Shown here one piece after another: positions 1,822 to 43,306 of a stretch of 64,000 nucleotides of DNA (positions are counted from its first letter, which is position 1; every line of letters starts with the position of its first letter). This DNA comes from Cellvibrio sp. 79. Its GTDB lineage: Bacteria; Pseudomonadota; Gammaproteobacteria; Pseudomonadales; Cellvibrionaceae. The notes beneath the pieces are model-generated. The model was not told the DNA's origin, did not search any database, and worked only from the letters and a program-made list of their open reading frames with translations. The stretch is from the NCBI GenBank assembly GCA_003056245.1, contig MVDH01000001.1:62001-126000 (forward strand). Direction: 5' to 3'. The position numbers were made by a program, and so were the translations under genes.

Positions 1822-2155
1822 GGTTTTATGGTGTTGTGCGCAGGTTTGGTGCAATTTTAATAAGTGGCTCATTAACTGTTTTTGCTGCACTTTTTAAAAT
1901 TGCACCACTAAAAAACAAATCTGTGCCCGTGCCCCTGAAAATTGCTTTTATCTGGGGCGAAAAAATTTATTCTCTTTCCGATAATCCTCCCGGTAATTTG
2001 TTCCTTCATTTAATCGCGATATAAAAAACAGTTAAAAATCAAATCGTTAAGGTTGATTTTCCGGCTCCGGTCATTGGTGTTCACGAAAACAAAACCCTTC
2101 TCCGGCCACTGGCATAGCGCTTGCTAAACCCCTCGTATTGAGGAGTTGCAGCCCT

Positions 2156-5100
2156 ATGTCGAGTTCTGTTGTTAAATCTGTCCGTTCTGTGTGCCCTTAC
2201 TGCGGTGTGGGTTGCGGTATGGTTCTTGAAACCGATGGCAAAAAAGTTATCAAGGTATCGGGCGATAAAAATCACCCTTCCAATTTCGGGCGCTTGTGCA
2301 CCAAGGGCCAAACCAGCGCCCAGGCATTGGTGAATTCCGGCCGCATGGAATCGGCATTTGTGCGCACCGAGCGCAATCGCGATCCCGTAAAAACACCAAT
2401 TGCACAAGCAATAAGTTTCACCGCAAAACGCCTGCGTGAAATTCTGGATCAATACGGCCCTGACGCACTCAGCTTTTATGTGTCCGGACAAATGTCTATT
2501 GAATCCCAATACCTGGTGAACAAACTCTGCAAAGGTTTTGTGCGCACCAATAACATCGAATCCAATTCGCGCTTGTGTATGGCGAGCGCGGGAATGGGGT
2601 ACAAACTATCACTGGGTTCTGATGCACCGCCCGGTTCCTACCAGGATTTTGACCACACCGATTTATTTTTTGTGATCGGTGCAAATATGGCGGATTGCCA
2701 TCCGATTTTATATTTGCGCATGATGGATCGTGTCAAAGCCGGGGCAAAATTAATTGTCGCTGATCCACGTCGCACAACCACCGCCGAAAAAGCCGATTTA
2801 TTTTTACCCATCAAGCCCGGCACTGATCTCGCGTTGTTAAATGGCTTGTTATTTTTACTGCACAAAAATGGTAAAACCGATTCCGAATTTATCGCGCAAT
2901 ACACTCAGGGCTGGGAAAATTTTCCGGCGTTTCTTGCCGATTACACACCGGAAAATGTAAGCGCAATTACCGGGCTTTCTGTTGATTCTATTACCAAGGC
3001 CGCAGAATTAATTGGCGCCGCGCCAGAATTTATGACGTGTTGGACTATGGGGCTTAATCAAAGCACCCACGGTACCTGGAACACCAACGCCATTTGCAAT
3101 TTACATTTAGCGACTGGAAAAATTTGTCGTTTGGGGAGCGGGCCTTTTTCACTCACCGGCCAGCCCAATGCGATGGGCGGCCGTGAGATGGGTTATATGG
3201 GGCCGGGGTTGCCGGGCCAGCGCACTTTGTTGGTAGAAAAAGATCGCGATTTTATTGAAAACCTGTGGGGCATTCCGCAAGGTTCCATCAGTACCAAATT
3301 AGGCAAAGGTACGGTGGATATGTTTGAGCGCATGGCGGCGGGCGAAATAAAAGCCTGCTGGATTATTTGTACCAACCCCGTTGCTTCTGTACCTAATCGC
3401 AAAATGGTGATCGAAGGTTTGCAAAAAGCCGAGCTGGTTATTGCGCAAGATGCATTTCTCGATACCGAAACCAATCGCTACGCCGATATTTTATTGCCCG
3501 GCGCATTATGGGCAGAAGCGGAAGGCGTAATGATTAATTCCGAACGCAATATCACGCTGATGCAGGAAGCGGTAAATCCTCCCGGTGATGCCATGGCGGA
3601 TTGGGAAATTGTTGCGCGCGTTGCGCGTGAAATGGGTTTTAGTGAAGGATTTAATTTTACCTCTGCCGCAGAAGTGTTTGAGGAAATAAAACGGAGCTAT
3701 AACCCCAAAACCGGGTACGATTTGCGCGGCGTTAGCTACGAACGCTTACGCAAAGATCCGTTGCAATGGCCATGTGCCGATGACAATTCCAAGCGCAATC
3801 CAATTCGCTATTTAAATACCGGTGTTAATCAGCCATTAAAAACTACGGATGATGGTTCGGTTCCGAAATTCCAATTTGCCACTGAATCCGGCAAAGCAAT
3901 TTTCCTGCCGCGTCCACACGTCAATCCCGCTGAAATGCCCGATGCAGAATTTCCCATGGTGCTCAATACCGGGCGCGTACAACACCAATGGCACACGCTT
4001 ACCAAAACCGGAAAAATCCCCACACTCAATAAATTAAATCCCGGTACTTTTGTGGAAATAAATCCGCAAGACGCCGCTGAGTTGGAAATTAAAAACAACG
4101 ATAAAGTGGAAGTCCGCTCCCGTCGTGGTTACGCAATCTTGCCCGCCGTTGTTACTGATCGAGTGCTTCCGGGAAATTGTTTCGCGCCGATACATTGGAA
4201 CGATGTATATGGCGATAATCTCTGCATCAATGCCGTGACCAGCGATAAGGTCGATGCAATTTCCCAGCAACCGGAATTAAAAGTGGCCGCGGTGGCTTTA
4301 ACGCGTGTGGAGGTTTTTGCAGAAGAATCTGCAAGCTTTAACGATTATGAATCTGCGTCTACCAGCGCGCCGGATTTGATAAGCAGCCAATGGGCATATG
4401 CACCGGTGGCTGAGGAAACCAGTATGACTTTAATTAAAACCTTTGCTGAAAAAGTTGGTGTGGTTGAAGCGGTTGCGCCACAATTTTCGGCGGATGAAAA
4501 AACCTATCTCGCCGGCTTTGTCGGCGGCTTGCAGGCTAGCGCCAAATTTATTCAAGCTGTGCCCGCGTTGCCCGGCGATGCACCGATCAGTGCTGAATAT
4601 CGACATTGGGTGAATGGCTTGCTCGCTGGCATGTTCAGCCGTGTTTTGCCCTTGGGGGTGAGTGCTGCATCTGCGGAAAATAAACCGGCATTGACACTGT
4701 TGTGGGCTTCACAAACCGGTAATGCAGAAACGCTTGCGCAACGGTTTATGCAGGAGTTATCGGCGCAGGGGTGGGCAGTGAGTCTGCAATCCATGAATGA
4801 TTACTCGGTCGCAAAACTTGCTGCGGACAAATTTGTTGTTTTTGTTACCAGCACGTTTGGCGATGGCGATGCTCCGGATAACGGCGGCGACTTCTGGAGT
4901 CAATTAAATGATGGTGCGGCCACCACCTTAAATGAATTGCAATTCGGTTTACTGGCATTAGGTGACTCCAACTACGATCAATTCTGTGGCCACGGCAAAA
5001 AACTATTTGCGCGCTTGCAAGCGCTGGGAGCTAAAGCGTTAGTAGAGCGTGTGGACTGCGACACGGATTTTGAAGCGCCCGCGGCAGAATGGTTTGCTAA

Positions 5101-31481: not shown

Positions 31482-34400
31482 TTATTCAACAAGTTTCAAT
31501 GATCCAAATACACTCGCATCAATATACCCCTGATTGTTTTTATGCCCGGCAGTGTCCACAGATCCCATCATACTTTCACGTTGCTGGCCGCCGTCATTGT
31601 CGATGTAACTCGCAGAGAACCCCAGCTCTTTTCCGGCAGTGAGTGTGAGTGGTGTATTGGCTTGTGAATCGGAATAATCTTCACCGTAAATACGCACGCG
31701 CATTTCCCACACATGTTTATCCCCTAAGCTTACTAACCGCACATCAATGTGGTCATTCAATAATTTCGGCCCCGAGGTGGTGTAATCCACAATGTCACCG
31801 TACGTACTGATGTGATAGGCCCAGGCTGAAGTATTGTATTGGTGCTGGCCACCGTTTTTATTTTCGTCGATAAAAATTTCCACGGTGTCATCTTCCCAGT
31901 AAGCATCCAATGCGGAGCGCGTATTGTCGTAGAGGCGGTCGTCGGTAATATCAAATAACAAGTAGAGATAATTTTCATCCCATAATGCTTTGTATTGACC
32001 GCTGTAATCCTGCGCATCCGGATTGGCTTGCGTGCCCAGCCAGAAAACATTTATCGGTGTCCAGGGCGCCTGGTCCCACACTGAATCGATAGTCCCGTCA
32101 ATTTCCGGTGCAGTTTGCGCTTTGGGCGCGATGTAAGTATTGGGTTCTGCGCTAACAGAGCTTGACGAACTGGATGAGCTGGATGCTGATGATTCCACTG
32201 AGCTTGATGAACTGCTTGCAGTTTCGCCAACAATAATGTCCACCGTTTTTGTAGCGGCAATGTCAGGACCATATGCCGTTAATGTGACGGTGTAAGTGCC
32301 AGGTTCGTTGTAGGTGTGTGAGCTGATGAGGCCGGATGCATTACTGTTATCACCAAAATCCCACGCAAGATAAACCGCGTCGCTCGATTCGCGCCCATCA
32401 ACATAAACGGTATTATCCTGCAGTCGCCAATTAAATTCGGCGACCGTTATTTTGGGTTCGAACACACCGCAAGGCTGATTAAAAGTAGCTTGTTGTGTAT
32501 CCGCCAGTTCGCCATCAAAAACTGTCAGCGTAACCGTGCGTGCTGTAGCAATTGATGTTGCCGATTCGCAATCGTTAAAAACTTGCGTGCTATCACCGGG
32601 CGCATCGCCATTTCCAAAATCCCACAAAAAAGACAGCGAATCGCCATCAACATCGAACGATGTTGAACCGAACGCGACAATGTTCAAACCGCTACGCGCA
32701 ACGCTCAATCGTGCAATCGGCGCGTTATTTTCGGTAGCCGTTTGCGCTTCAATAATTTCACTGGTGCTGGTGGAATTTATCCCATCAGAAACCGTGAGCG
32801 TTACTGTGTAATTGCCGCTGGCCGCATAGGTGTGCCACGCCTCGGGATACTGGATAGTGCTGCCATCACCGAAATCAATCACGTAAGTGAGGTTATCGTT
32901 TTCTGCATCGGTCGACGCGCGACCATTTACGTGAATGGTCGAACCGGTTGCGGTTATCGCCACATTTGCAATAGGCGGTTCATTCGCATTGCTCGATGAA
33001 CTTTGTTCAGATGAAGATACAGAGCTTTCTACCGAACTTGAACTTTCTACCGAGCTGGAGCTTTCCACCGAACTGGATATATCAACACTTGAAGCTACAG
33101 AGCTTGAAGTTTCAACACTCGATTCTTCCGAGCTTGATTCTGAACTCACCACAACCGAACTACTAGATTCAGCTTCCACACTTGATGATGAGCTGGAAGA
33201 ACTTGAAGGCGGAACATCATCCAATGCCGGATACGCATTTTGTACCAGCAACTGGAATGCTTCGGGGAACCAGCGGCCAGCAACCGGAGCATTGGCTAAT
33301 GAACCAGTTGCAACACTGCCATTATTTCCTTCACTGCGCGTGTAAGTCGGATCGCACATGCGATCAAAACCTTTGGCGGGATCGAGCGGATCAAAAGACA
33401 ATTCCAGCGATGAAGCGCCATCCGATTCACCCGGCGGTTTCACCCACACATACGCATCAATGCCCGGTGCCGGAGTTGCTTGCGGACGCTCGCCGATTCC
33501 ACCCGGTTGGTTACACCAGTTACCGCGATGGTGGCGGCGATCTACACGCGACTCATCAATAAAGGTATCCAGCACTGTGCTTGTCGATTGCGCCGTCGGA
33601 CGATTCGCGCCGCCCCAGCCATTGCGTGAAGTATCCACCAGCATACCGATGCTGCTTGGGAAACCCGCAGCAATCATGCGCGTGCGCCAGGCTTGCACAA
33701 AGGCGACTTCACTGAAATACGGATTCCATTCATAGAACTTCGCTTGACGTACTTGCGTGCCGCCACCGCTGCCGGGGAACGCACTGTTCGCGAGTGAATC
33801 CAGGAATGGTTCATGAACCGGTGTGTAGCCCGCGGTGTTGGAAACAAAACCGGCGATAGAACGCACACCGTTAGTTGTTCCTTTAATCGCATCGCCAATT
33901 AATGTAATAGCCTTGCCGAAATTATCGTCCCAACCCAGCCAACCGGAATGACCGATATCGACGTAGCTGTACACATTGGGAATTTGCGACAATTTATTTA
34001 ATGTGTAACGCGTGTTCGCAACATAACCATCGGTTGCATCGGTGGCCAATTGGCAATCGGCATCGCTCAAATTGGTGACGAGGTTGGGCAACGAATCCGG
34101 TTCAATAATCGCAACGATACGCAAATTCCGATATTTACTATCGGAAAAAATTTCCGCGATCACATCAATATATTCAGTGCGATAACGCAGCGTGCCTTCA
34201 GGTCCTTGCGTTAATTCACCGTTTGATGCGAGCGCATGGCAATCGCGATTGGGTAAGTCGTAAACCACAATCTGGATTAAATTAGCGTTTTGTTGCAGCG
34301 CTGCATCAAGGTGATCGCGCAAACCAAAACCATCGGCGGGATCAATCGCACCAATGCGATCCATCCACACCGCCGTATTAAAACGCGCAACTTTATCGCC

Positions 34401-36608
34401 ACCAATTTCTGCACGCGCTTTACCGGACCACACCGGGTCTACGTACCAACGCGCGCCGACGAATGGATTATCCAATGGGTGATCGTCGATTGGGTCGTCG
34501 GAGCTGAAACTGCTCGAACTGCTTGACGATAACGCAATACTGGATGGAGCGGAACTTGACGGTACTGAGCTGATAACAGGTTCCGAGCTTGAAGTTTCCG
34601 AACTGGATTGCGCTGAACTTGATGGCTCGGAACTCACCACAACTGAACTGCTCGATTCCGCTTCCACGCTTGATGATGAGCTGGAAGAACTCGAAGGCGG
34701 AACATCATCCAGTGCCGGATACGCATTTTGCACCAGCAACTGGAATGCTTCGGGGAACCAGCGGCCAGCAACCGGAGCATTGGCTAATGAACCAGTTGCA
34801 ACATTGCCATTATTCCCTTCGCTGCGCGTGTAAGTTGGGTCGCACATGCGATCAAACCCTTTGGCCGGATCGAGTGGATCAAAAGACAATTCCAGCGATG
34901 AAGCGCCATCTGATTCACCCGGCGGTTTCACCCACACATATGCATCAATACCCGGTGCCGGAGTTGCTTGCGGACGCTCGCCGATTCCACCCGGTTGGTT
35001 ACACCAGTTACCGCGATGGTGGCGGCGATCTACGCGCGACTGATCAATAAATGTATCCAGTACTGTGCTTGTCGATTGCGCCGTCGGACGGTTTGCTCCT
35101 CCCCAGCCATTGCGTGAAGTATCCACCAGCATACCGATGCTGCTTGGGAAACCCGCAGCGATCATGCGTGTGCGCCACGCCTGCACAAAGGCGACTTCAC
35201 TGAAATACGGATTCCATTCATAAAATTTCGCTTGACGAACTTGCGTGCCGCCACCGCTACCGGGGAACGCACTGTTCGCGAGTGAATCTAGGAATGGTTC
35301 GTGAACCGGTGTGTAGCCCGCGGTGTTGGAAACAAAACCGGCGATAGAACGCACACCGTTAGTGGTTCCTTTAATCGCATCGCCAATTAATGTAATAGCC
35401 TTGCCGAAATTATCGTCCCAACCCAGCCAACCGGAATGACCGATATCAACGTAGCTGTACACATTGGGAATTTGCGACAATTTATTTAATGTGTAACGCG
35501 TGTTCGCAACATAACCATCGGTTGCATCGGTTGCCAATTGGCAATCGGCATCGCTCAAATTGGTGACGAGGTTTGGCAACGAATCCGGTTCAATAATCGC
35601 AACGATACGCAAATTCCGGTATTTGCTGTCAGAAAAAATTTCCGCAATCACATCAATATATTCGGTGCGATAACGGAGCGTGCCTTCAGGTCCTTGCGTT
35701 AATTCACCATTCGATGCGAGCGCGTGGCAATCGCGATTGGGTAAGTCGTAAACCACAATCTGGATTAAATTAGCGTTCTGTTGCAACGCCGCATCGAGGT
35801 GATCACGCAAACCAAAACCATCGGCGGGGTCAATTGCGCCGATACGATCCATCCACACCGCCGTATTAAAACGCGCAACTTTATCGCCACCAATTTCTGC
35901 ACGTGCTTTACCGGACCACACCGGGTCTACATACCAGCGTGCACCGACGAATGGATTATCCAATGGGTGATCGTCAATTGCGCCGTCGGAGCTGATGCTG
36001 CTGGCAATACTTGATGATGACGGAACTGATGAGCTTGAGGATTCAATTGCAATTGAAGATTCACTATTTGAACTGCTGGAAATAATCAGTTCTGACGAAC
36101 TGCTGCTCGATTCAATTGAACTATTTGATTCAACGGAACTTGATTCAACGGAACTGGAATCTACCGAGCTGCTTGTTTCAATCGAACTTTCAACACTGCT
36201 ACTCTCACTTGATGTTGAATTGCTGCATATAGCGCCGGTCACCGTCGGGCGCTGTGCAGGGCTACCAGCGGTTCCCTTATTTCCTTGCACACCAAATTCA
36301 ATCGTTTGCCCCGGATTAATCCGGTCATTCCAACCGACTCCTGTCGCAGTGTAAGGATTACTCCCGGAAATATTGGCATTCCAACCACCGGTGCGTGTCG
36401 TGCTATCGGTGTAACTCCAGCTTACAGACCAGCCATTAATTGCTGTGCTGGCGTCATTGGTTATGCGCACGGCGGCGACAAAACCGTTACCCCATTCATT
36501 CTGGATAACATAGTCGCAACGGGCTGCATGGCTGGATACAGAATGTAATGCCAGCATTCCTATAAGTGTGGCGGCAGAGCGCCGTAGAAAAATAGATGAG
36601 ATTTTCAT
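31482..36608 (-). CDS. Multimodular secreted cellulase: CBM2 - Ser linker - GH6 - Ser linker - GH6 - Ser linker - three PKD - Ser linker - CBM9-like
   Basis: CBM2 '[22 protein letters not shown]'; two near-identical GH6 domains '[25 protein letters not shown]...[16 protein letters not shown]'; PKD '[35 protein letters not shown]'; CBM9-like C-terminus. Confidence 0.94.
33142..34507 (-). repeat. GH6 domain duplication, copy B (offset 1488 bp from copy A)
   Basis: Aligned by eye at both ends to 34630..35995 with identical 1488-bp offset; protein nearly identical, with scattered synonymous differences. Confidence 0.93.
34630..35995 (-). repeat. GH6 domain duplication, copy A
   Basis: See copy B. 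Confidence 0.93.
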
Positions 36609-39960: not shown

Positions 39961-40026
39961 GACACTTTTGGCGCGGTGTTTGTCCCACAATTTAATTCAC
40001 GAACTACTTGGAAAAAGGATCTGTTT

Positions 40027-40338
40027 ATGATTTCAAAAGTAAAATTATCAACTGGATTATTATTGGTTGCATTAACTCAATCTCATGCCTATGCAGACAT
40101 CTCCGTGAACGGCTTGCCACTTAACGGTCTTCAGCTAAATGGCTTGGAACTTAATGGTCTACCACTGAATGGATTGAACATTAATGGTCTGCCACTCAAT
40201 GGATTGAACTATAACGGCGCCAGGCTAAATGGTCTGGACCTGAATGGTATGAAAACGCTTAATAACGTTGAAACAAGCGTGGAAAGCGTTACAGTAAATC
40301 CATTGGTTAGCCTGGCTGACGAATCCTTGGCTAAATAA
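40027..40338 (+). CDS. Secreted LxLNG pentapeptide-like repeat protein
   Basis: Probable ATG 40027 ([23 protein letters not shown] signal peptide) then consecutive pentads [45 protein letters not shown]. Confidence 0.75.
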
Positions 40339-40342
40339 TTTT

Positions 40343-41020
40343 ATGATGTTTATAATTTGTCGCCAGCTCTCAAAAGCTGGCGTTTTTTTTCTTGTTTTTA
40401 TTGCTTCAATCGCGGCTGCCACAGAGCATCCGTTGCGAAATGAATCACTGGCGCAAACCGAACAAGGGCGGCAATTGCTTAAATATCTGGTTAGTTGCGC
40501 ATTGCCGGAAACGGATGGTGTATTTGTTGTTGTCGACGGGAAAAGGTATGTCTTCCCCGGAAACCTGGGTTGGGTTCCTGACTGGATTGATCGTCCAATG
40601 ACTGTCGCAGAGAAGCGCAGAATGTCTGCATGTATCGCTGCACATACCAACTTTTTTGGAAAAACAGTGCGGATTTCAGTGCGTAGTGATAATCCGGCGG
40701 CACCGAAAGGTTTTCAAACAACGGCTGCTGAGCGCAAGAATTATTCTTTTTTTGAAGCCGGATTTTTTGGCAACCTTTTTGTATCAAATCCGGTAAGTTA
40801 TGTGTGTTTGGGGAATGATTTTGCAGAACGTGAAAAGCATTTGGAGAATTTGTATCGTGTTTGCTCTCTTGAGCATAAAAATGTAACAGGATTTAGTCGC
40901 TGTAACTTTAAAATTGTCGGGCTTTGTAAGGATAAGCCTTTTGTACAGGATGGCGTTGATTATTCCCGTGAAATTTTAAAGGTGTACTTGCCGGCTCCAT
41001 CACGAAGTAACGCAAAATAA
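40343..41020 (+). CDS. Secreted hypothetical protein, Cys-containing
   Basis: 225 aa with signal peptide 'MMFIICRQLSKAGVFFLVFIASIAAATEHP'; 4 nt after the LxLNG ORF stop. Confidence 0.75.
   Translation: MMFIICRQLSKAGVFFLVFIASIAAATEHPLRNESLAQTEQGRQLLKYLVSCALPETDGVFVVVDGKRYVFPGNLGWVPDWIDRPMTVAEKRRMSACIAAHTNFFGKTVRISVRSDNPAAPKGFQTTAAERKNYSFFEAGFFGNLFVSNPVSYVCLGNDFAEREKHLENLYRVCSLEHKNVTGFSRCNFKIVGLCKDKPFVQDGVDYSREILKVYLPAPSRSNAK
40361..40390 (+). terminator. Rho-independent terminator-like hairpin inside the 5' end of the 40343 CDS
   Basis: CGCCAGCT (40361-40368) CTCAAA AGCTGGCG (40375-40382) TTTTTTTT (40383-40390). Confidence 0.75.
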
Positions 41021-43228: not shown

Positions 43229-43277
43229 TTGCTAATTATTTTTAATGGGTTTACTGAAACGAAATTTTTATACATTG

Positions 43278-43306
43278 AAAGCCGACAAAAGTCGGCTTTT
43301 ATTTTT
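43278..43306 (+). terminator. Rho-independent terminator
   Basis: AAAGCCGAC aaaa GTCGGCTTTtattttt. Confidence 0.85.

Follow-up and report, generated by a model that had tools for sequence, protein, structure and literature searches.

A terminator-like hairpin within the signal-peptide codons of a secreted-protein gene in Cellvibrio, and its parallel behind rpmE

Partial terminators located inside operons set protein ratios; such terminators are leaky and lie between co-transcribed genes, usually in the intergenic gap. Terminators within coding regions, attenuation governed by leader peptides and terminators opened by ribosomes, as in S. gallolyticus pil1 (PMC3894217), are already known. Experiments in E. 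coli demonstrated that termination efficiency rises with the distance from a stop codon and is maximal beyond ~27-30 nt (~0.8 for W18, ~0.12 for R17), that a terminator placed 30 bp into an ORF loses ~10% of its efficiency when the ORF is translated, and that efficient termination is retained by terminators lying in the first 100 bp of a coding region (PMC4824070). In limited word searches of the literature we found no description of a terminator that also encodes the signal peptide of the following gene.

We analysed a window of 64,000 nucleotides from Cellvibrio sp. 79 (contig MVDH01000001.1, positions 62,001 to 126,000), where a gene for a small secreted protein with LxLNG repeats is followed by an ORF for a larger secreted protein, here called the partner (Table 1). 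An intrinsic terminator had been proposed to be built into the signal-peptide codons of the partner; the sequence and coordinates given for its hairpin and T tract (40361-40390, codons for RQLSKAGVFFL) proved to be exact. The stem is perfect, with GC in six of eight pairs and a loop of 6 nt, and the eight T residues follow immediately 3' of it, as expected for an intrinsic terminator; pair probabilities of the stem are 0.81-0.92 in a 116-nt context. It begins 22 nt past the LxLNG stop codon and at +18 nt from the first partner AUG. Position 40361 is the first of partner codon 7 (CGC), and RQLSKAGVFFL corresponds to codons 7-17; stem and T tract together code for RQLSKAG-VFF, followed by LVFIASIAAA, the core of the signal peptide as judged by eye. 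The frame is open throughout, both possible start codons (40343 and 40346) being upstream of the T tract. The LxLNG gene has no other strong terminator before 43276, to which its transcripts would run on if the hairpin did not stop them. A repeated element was rejected, the genome holding a single copy of the exact stem pattern.

Table 1. Features of the LxLNG-partner region and of the rpmE terminator (positions in the window, except for the last line)
Feature	Position	Strand	Details
LxLNG-repeat gene, small secreted protein, 103 aa	40027..40338	+	AAGGA at 40015-40019 ahead of ATG
Partner ORF, secreted Cys-rich protein of an unnamed family, 225 aa	40343..41020	+	ATG 40343 or 40346
Partner signal-peptide codons MMFIICRQLSKAGVFFLVFIASIAAA	40343..40420	+	translation; cleavage point judged by eye
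Hairpin CGCCAGCT (40361-40368) - CTCAAA - AGCTGGCG (40375-40382)	40361..40382	+	8 bp, -13.6 kcal/mol
T8 tract TTTTTTTT	40383..40390	+	encodes most of V14-F15-F16, start of hydrophobic core
Next strong intrinsic terminator, same strand	43276..43301	+	2.9 kb further downstream
rpmE terminator in nuclease frame, host	C9:200124-200151	-	loci L074-L103

The close junction and the missing Shine-Dalgarno sequence, both part of the original prediction, are borne out by the DNA. The TAA of the LxLNG gene occupies 40336-40338 and ATGATG begins at 40343, leaving a gap of 4 nt; none of AGGA, GGAG, GAGG and AAGG is present in the 20 nt upstream of the partner start. It had also been suggested, as the simpler alternative, that the true start is located further downstream. 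This alternative fails. After ATG 40346 the first in-frame ATG, GTG or TTG is the TTG at 40433, beyond the entire hydrophobic stretch; before it, ATT at 40355 and ATT at 40400, both in frame, would be the sole, non-standard, start options. Thus no start after the hairpin retains the signal peptide, and the partner start has to be upstream of the hairpin; a later start is also contradicted by homologous cassettes, in which the partner mostly starts beside the upstream stop.

A sigma-70-like site at 40327-40356 was rejected as a partner promoter, as it would place the RNA start downstream of the start codon and within the hairpin; promoter-like sites were fewer than in shuffled sequence. Sequence searches with the partner protein gave no match in Pfam, NCBIfam or PDB, and its AlphaFold model (mean pLDDT 43) was too poor for use. 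Elsewhere in the window, a 1708-aa ORF (31482-36608) has two near-identical enzyme-like (cellulase-like) domains with serine-rich linkers, by eye an internal duplication.

To place the hairpin on the scale of the host's own terminators, one scan rule was used for 864 kb of sequence (800 kb of the host genome plus the window). Under its strict form (at least 7 T in 8 and dG <= -12) we observed 74 sites in intergenic regions or at 3' ends of genes, four in-gene sites in sense orientation and one antisense site deep inside a gene; with 74 sites against a single antisense one, the rule should produce few false positives. Several of the other in-gene sense terminator-like sites of the genome resemble, by eye, artefacts of choosing the longest ORF as the start. 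The stop-to-stem distance in the genome peaks at 20-29 nt, a range that includes the 22 nt seen here, and in dG the hairpin ranks 61 of 120 among the genome's terminator-like sites, i.e. mid-range. When synonymous codons were resampled for the first 32 residues of the partner, an equally strong terminator appeared in 0.4-0.9% of draws; this is unusual for the partner gene, though not impossible across the whole genome. Given the few false positives, the spacing, the mid-range dG and the rarity in resampling, the hairpin looks like an ordinary terminator of the LxLNG gene, in strength and in distance, by the genome's own yardstick.

The cassette itself has a scattered distribution. None of 56 further genomes, drawn from genus, family and order, carried the cassette or the partner; the partner cassette was not found in 369 genomes sampled across the class and had no match in phage or viral collections, and a single-sequence scan of genome contigs with the partner gave no homologue. 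By tblastn, partner homologues were found on Sulfitobacter and Pseudosulfitobacter plasmids, and an alignment-based scan added Aquabacterium, Epibacterium, an Anammoxibacter MAG and myxobacterial/deltaproteobacterial MAGs, so that the family extends to other phyla. A gene of the LxLNG type precedes the partner at five loci (L010, L011, L012, L014 and L032), and in Roseobacteraceae and Aquabacterium the partner is directly behind it. Relative to the LxLNG-type stop the partner starts at -4 nt in L010, +10 nt in L011 and +8 nt in L012; the two genes overlap in L032, and the gap in L014 is ~86 nt, provided that its GTG start is correct. In the Anammoxibacter MAG the partner is present with no evident LxLNG gene. 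At L015, L016 and their paralogues an NRLAVN repeat and the partner domain form one protein. The adjacent or overlapping starts across loci, together with this fused protein, support the view that LxLNG gene and partner are a functional pair in which the partner start sits beside the upstream stop.

Fused NRLAVN-partner proteins (L015, L016, L025, L026, L028 and L029) are found in the myxobacterial/deltaproteobacterial MAGs and occur as several paralogues per genome; they belong to an unnamed family with conserved cysteines. The partner copy of L032, from a genome of Epibacterium's order, contains an in-frame stop and is probably a broken gene; the TAA is found within a 10-bp inverted repeat just past a CALP motif (~1980-2006, minus strand).

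A T-tailed hairpin was absent from the distant junctions: L010 and L014 have strong stems lacking a T tract, and L011 has no stem. These T-less stems of two Roseobacteraceae (L010, 4007-4034; L014, ~3928-3954) are located one in early partner codons and the other before the start. Stems as stable as those at the junctions of the window, L010 and L014 are found in 3-7% of local blocks, and a junction hairpin conserved across LxLNG cassettes is only suggestive.

A survey of 2.06 Mb of host sequence, with 436 terminator-like sites (dG <= -11, at least 6 T in 8), revealed one other strong case, the terminator behind rpmE (ribosomal protein L31). This terminator, ACGCCGGTAAGGTTGCTTACCGGCGT-T6, falls in the codons that specify the signal peptide of a secreted nuclease (MQQSRKTPVRLLTGVFLCLLSSSFVLAECG), and its hairpin core begins at codon 7 of the nuclease MQQSRKTPVRLLTGVFLCLLSS. 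With the nuclease protein as query, 30 loci were collected in relatives, of which 29 were scored (L092 was left out; at L101, counted among the 29, the script picked a wrong hairpin and the locus is mis-scored). The nuclease frame is open through the rpmE terminator in 28 of the 29 scored loci including the host, or in 27 of the 28 others (genus, family and order); the exception is L094, where the nuclease begins after the hairpin. Several loci, L087, L091, L093 and L098 among them, have an ATG that precedes the stem and follows the rpmE stop by 4-28 nt. At other loci an ATG in the loop is a possible start, the 3' arm and T tract still encoding the signal-peptide core.

Among 14 distinct sequences of the genus, 97.8% of cells of the 13-bp rpmE stem pair, with 23 both-sided changes, and covariation was 0.387 versus at most 0.150 in slid controls. 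The residues encoded by the stem vary (TPVRLLTG, TPGMKIPG, TPSVQTLG). Since the stem is kept and covaries while the encoded residues change, selection preserves the RNA hairpin, with the frame staying open. On this comparative evidence the terminator-in-signal-peptide design is real at rpmE, and by analogy it gives support to the LxLNG pair. At both junctions terminator stem and T tract encode the core of a signal peptide, and at several rpmE-nuclease loci the start is near the upstream stop, as it is at the LxLNG junction. The rpmE-nuclease case differs in joining unrelated genes and in having an A tract that encodes lysines; moreover, its design is conserved across genus, family and order, whereas the same is not known of the LxLNG pair, which the 56 other genomes lack. 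One further site of the host, at C9:408622-408649 on the minus strand, has a strong hairpin with a T-rich tail directly ahead of the codons for the transmembrane segment in a HemX-like protein, ~30 codons into the gene.

We consider it probable that hairpin and T8 are the intrinsic terminator of the LxLNG gene, doubling as signal-peptide code, and that leaky read-through yields the partner. The DNA of this terminator also encodes the n-region of the partner signal peptide and the first part of its hydrophobic core. RNA polymerase would stop at ~40390 on most transcripts, producing a short mRNA for the repeat protein, while the read-through fraction would bear the full partner ORF, whose translation would depend on coupling to the stop 4 nt upstream or on reinitiation from it. 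The output would then be fixed and unequal, with the repeat protein abundant and the partner scarce. Since 22 nt separate the upstream stop from the stem, this output would also respond modestly to the distance at which a ribosome follows RNA polymerase; translation of the LxLNG gene may somewhat raise the leak. What the sequences themselves show is the anatomy of the terminator, its canonical distance from the stop, an ORF open across it, a conserved cassette and, at rpmE-nuclease, a recurrence of the design with covariation. From these features we infer termination, its efficiency, read-through, coupling and stoichiometry; by analogy with the E. coli measurements, a stem 22 nt past a stop and 18 nt past a start is expected to terminate most transcripts and to let some leak. 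The double use of the terminator is probably a way of obtaining the repeat protein in quantity with only a little of the partner. Against the leaky-terminator reading are the absence of the cassette from close relatives, the distant cassettes with no T-tailed hairpin and the comparable site in up to 0.9% of resampled draws. Also, the terminated mRNA would carry a partner start with no stop codon, and initiation there would trap ribosomes; a weak partner start would limit such stalling.

The original prediction had gone further and proposed a translation-controlled attenuator: ribosomes finishing the LxLNG gene reinitiate at 40343/40346 and enter the stem, and the resulting read-through makes partner output follow LxLNG translation. 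What stands of this interpretation is a terminator-grade hairpin within the signal-peptide codons of a real conserved gene, at the usual distance past the upstream stop; that ribosomes switch it strongly is conceivable, but we rate such an attenuator as unlikely and as less probable than simple leakage. The partner start 4 nt past the stop, with its lack of a Shine-Dalgarno sequence, agrees with it, as do the ribosome-opened terminators proven in S. gallolyticus pil1 (PMC3894217), and a ribosome closely trailing on the LxLNG gene could lower terminator efficiency, since the 22 nt between stop and stem fall below the >27-30 nt needed for full efficiency. Yet in E. coli a terminator keeps its efficiency when it lies in the first 100 bp of a gene, which makes the attenuator less likely, and translation relieved a terminator 30 bp inside an ORF by just ~10% (PMC4824070). 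No antiterminator was found, the stretch 40027-40357 having no complement of at least 6 bp to the 5' arm, and the stem probability is ~0.9; the upstream ORF, a 103-aa secreted repeat protein, is no leader peptide and has no leader-peptide-like stall codons, and comparative support is missing at the LxLNG locus.

The same resampling figure of 0.4-0.9% bears on pure coincidence, in which an inverted repeat arose by chance beside a U-rich signal-peptide core, with little or no termination and a partner merely co-expressed. In a genome with hundreds of secreted proteins a few such sites are expected, and there are further hairpins with T tracts ahead of hydrophobic segments, e.g. C9:408622; we hold this explanation to be quite unlikely in view of the canonical stop spacing, the mid-range strength and the near absence of antisense genic sites, and the LxLNG gene has no alternative terminator, while even an accidental site should terminate. 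The hairpin could instead act on translation or mRNA stability, the stem 18 nt past the AUG holding the ribosome or guarding the 3' end of the LxLNG mRNA. Its position relative to a start with no Shine-Dalgarno sequence would suit such a role, and so would the strong T-less stems at or near the junctions of L010 and L014; the T8, however, is left unexplained, L011 has no stem and stem positions vary between loci, all of which makes this role very unlikely. That T8, being a homopolymer inside a coding region, is a slippage site toggling the partner on and off by phase variation appears highly improbable: the tract is just 8 nt long, and there are no variant reads and no close relatives for comparison.

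Along with the leaky-terminator reading of the LxLNG pair one could speculate, tentatively and with more doubt than confidence, that terminators have repeatedly served as the material from which signal peptides are made, with the partner of the LxLNG gene and the nuclease behind rpmE as two independent cases. Read in frame, an A tract, a GC stem and a U tract would translate into an n-region that bears lysines and, behind it, a core of Val/Phe/Leu; a gene extending its 5' end into an upstream terminator would become secreted and, at the same time, expressed solely via leaky read-through. Given the fused myxobacterial form, the split LxLNG pair with a terminator between its parts suggests a way to unequal amounts. 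If terminators do double as signal-peptide code, gene finders would misplace the starts of such genes or call them separate, leaky termination behind an unrelated or partner gene (e.g. that of ribosomal protein L31) could fix the level of a secreted protein, and there would be a simple evolutionary source for new signal peptides. The idea is directly testable at the junction of rpmE and the nuclease gene, which is conserved in over two dozen of the genomes sampled and has covarying stems in the genus.

Among described systems, the E. coli tR2 construct W48 (Li et al. 2015, PMC4824070) is similar in having an operon-internal terminator soon after the start of the next ORF, with efficiency expected to persist and with a terminated mRNA lacking a stop codon; W48 is an engineered reporter, whereas the LxLNG terminator is natural, begins 18 nt past the start and doubles as signal-peptide code. 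With ribosome-mediated attenuators (pyrBI, trp-type and S. gallolyticus pil1, PMC3894217) it shares the possibility that ribosome position relative to the terminator sets read-through. Unlike in those attenuators, the upstream ORF encodes a full secreted protein, there is no leader peptide, repeats or antiterminator, and the terminator is located inside the structural gene to be controlled. What the LxLNG junction would have in common with the partial terminators of operons is a leaky terminator between co-transcribed genes; it differs from them in being inside coding sequence.
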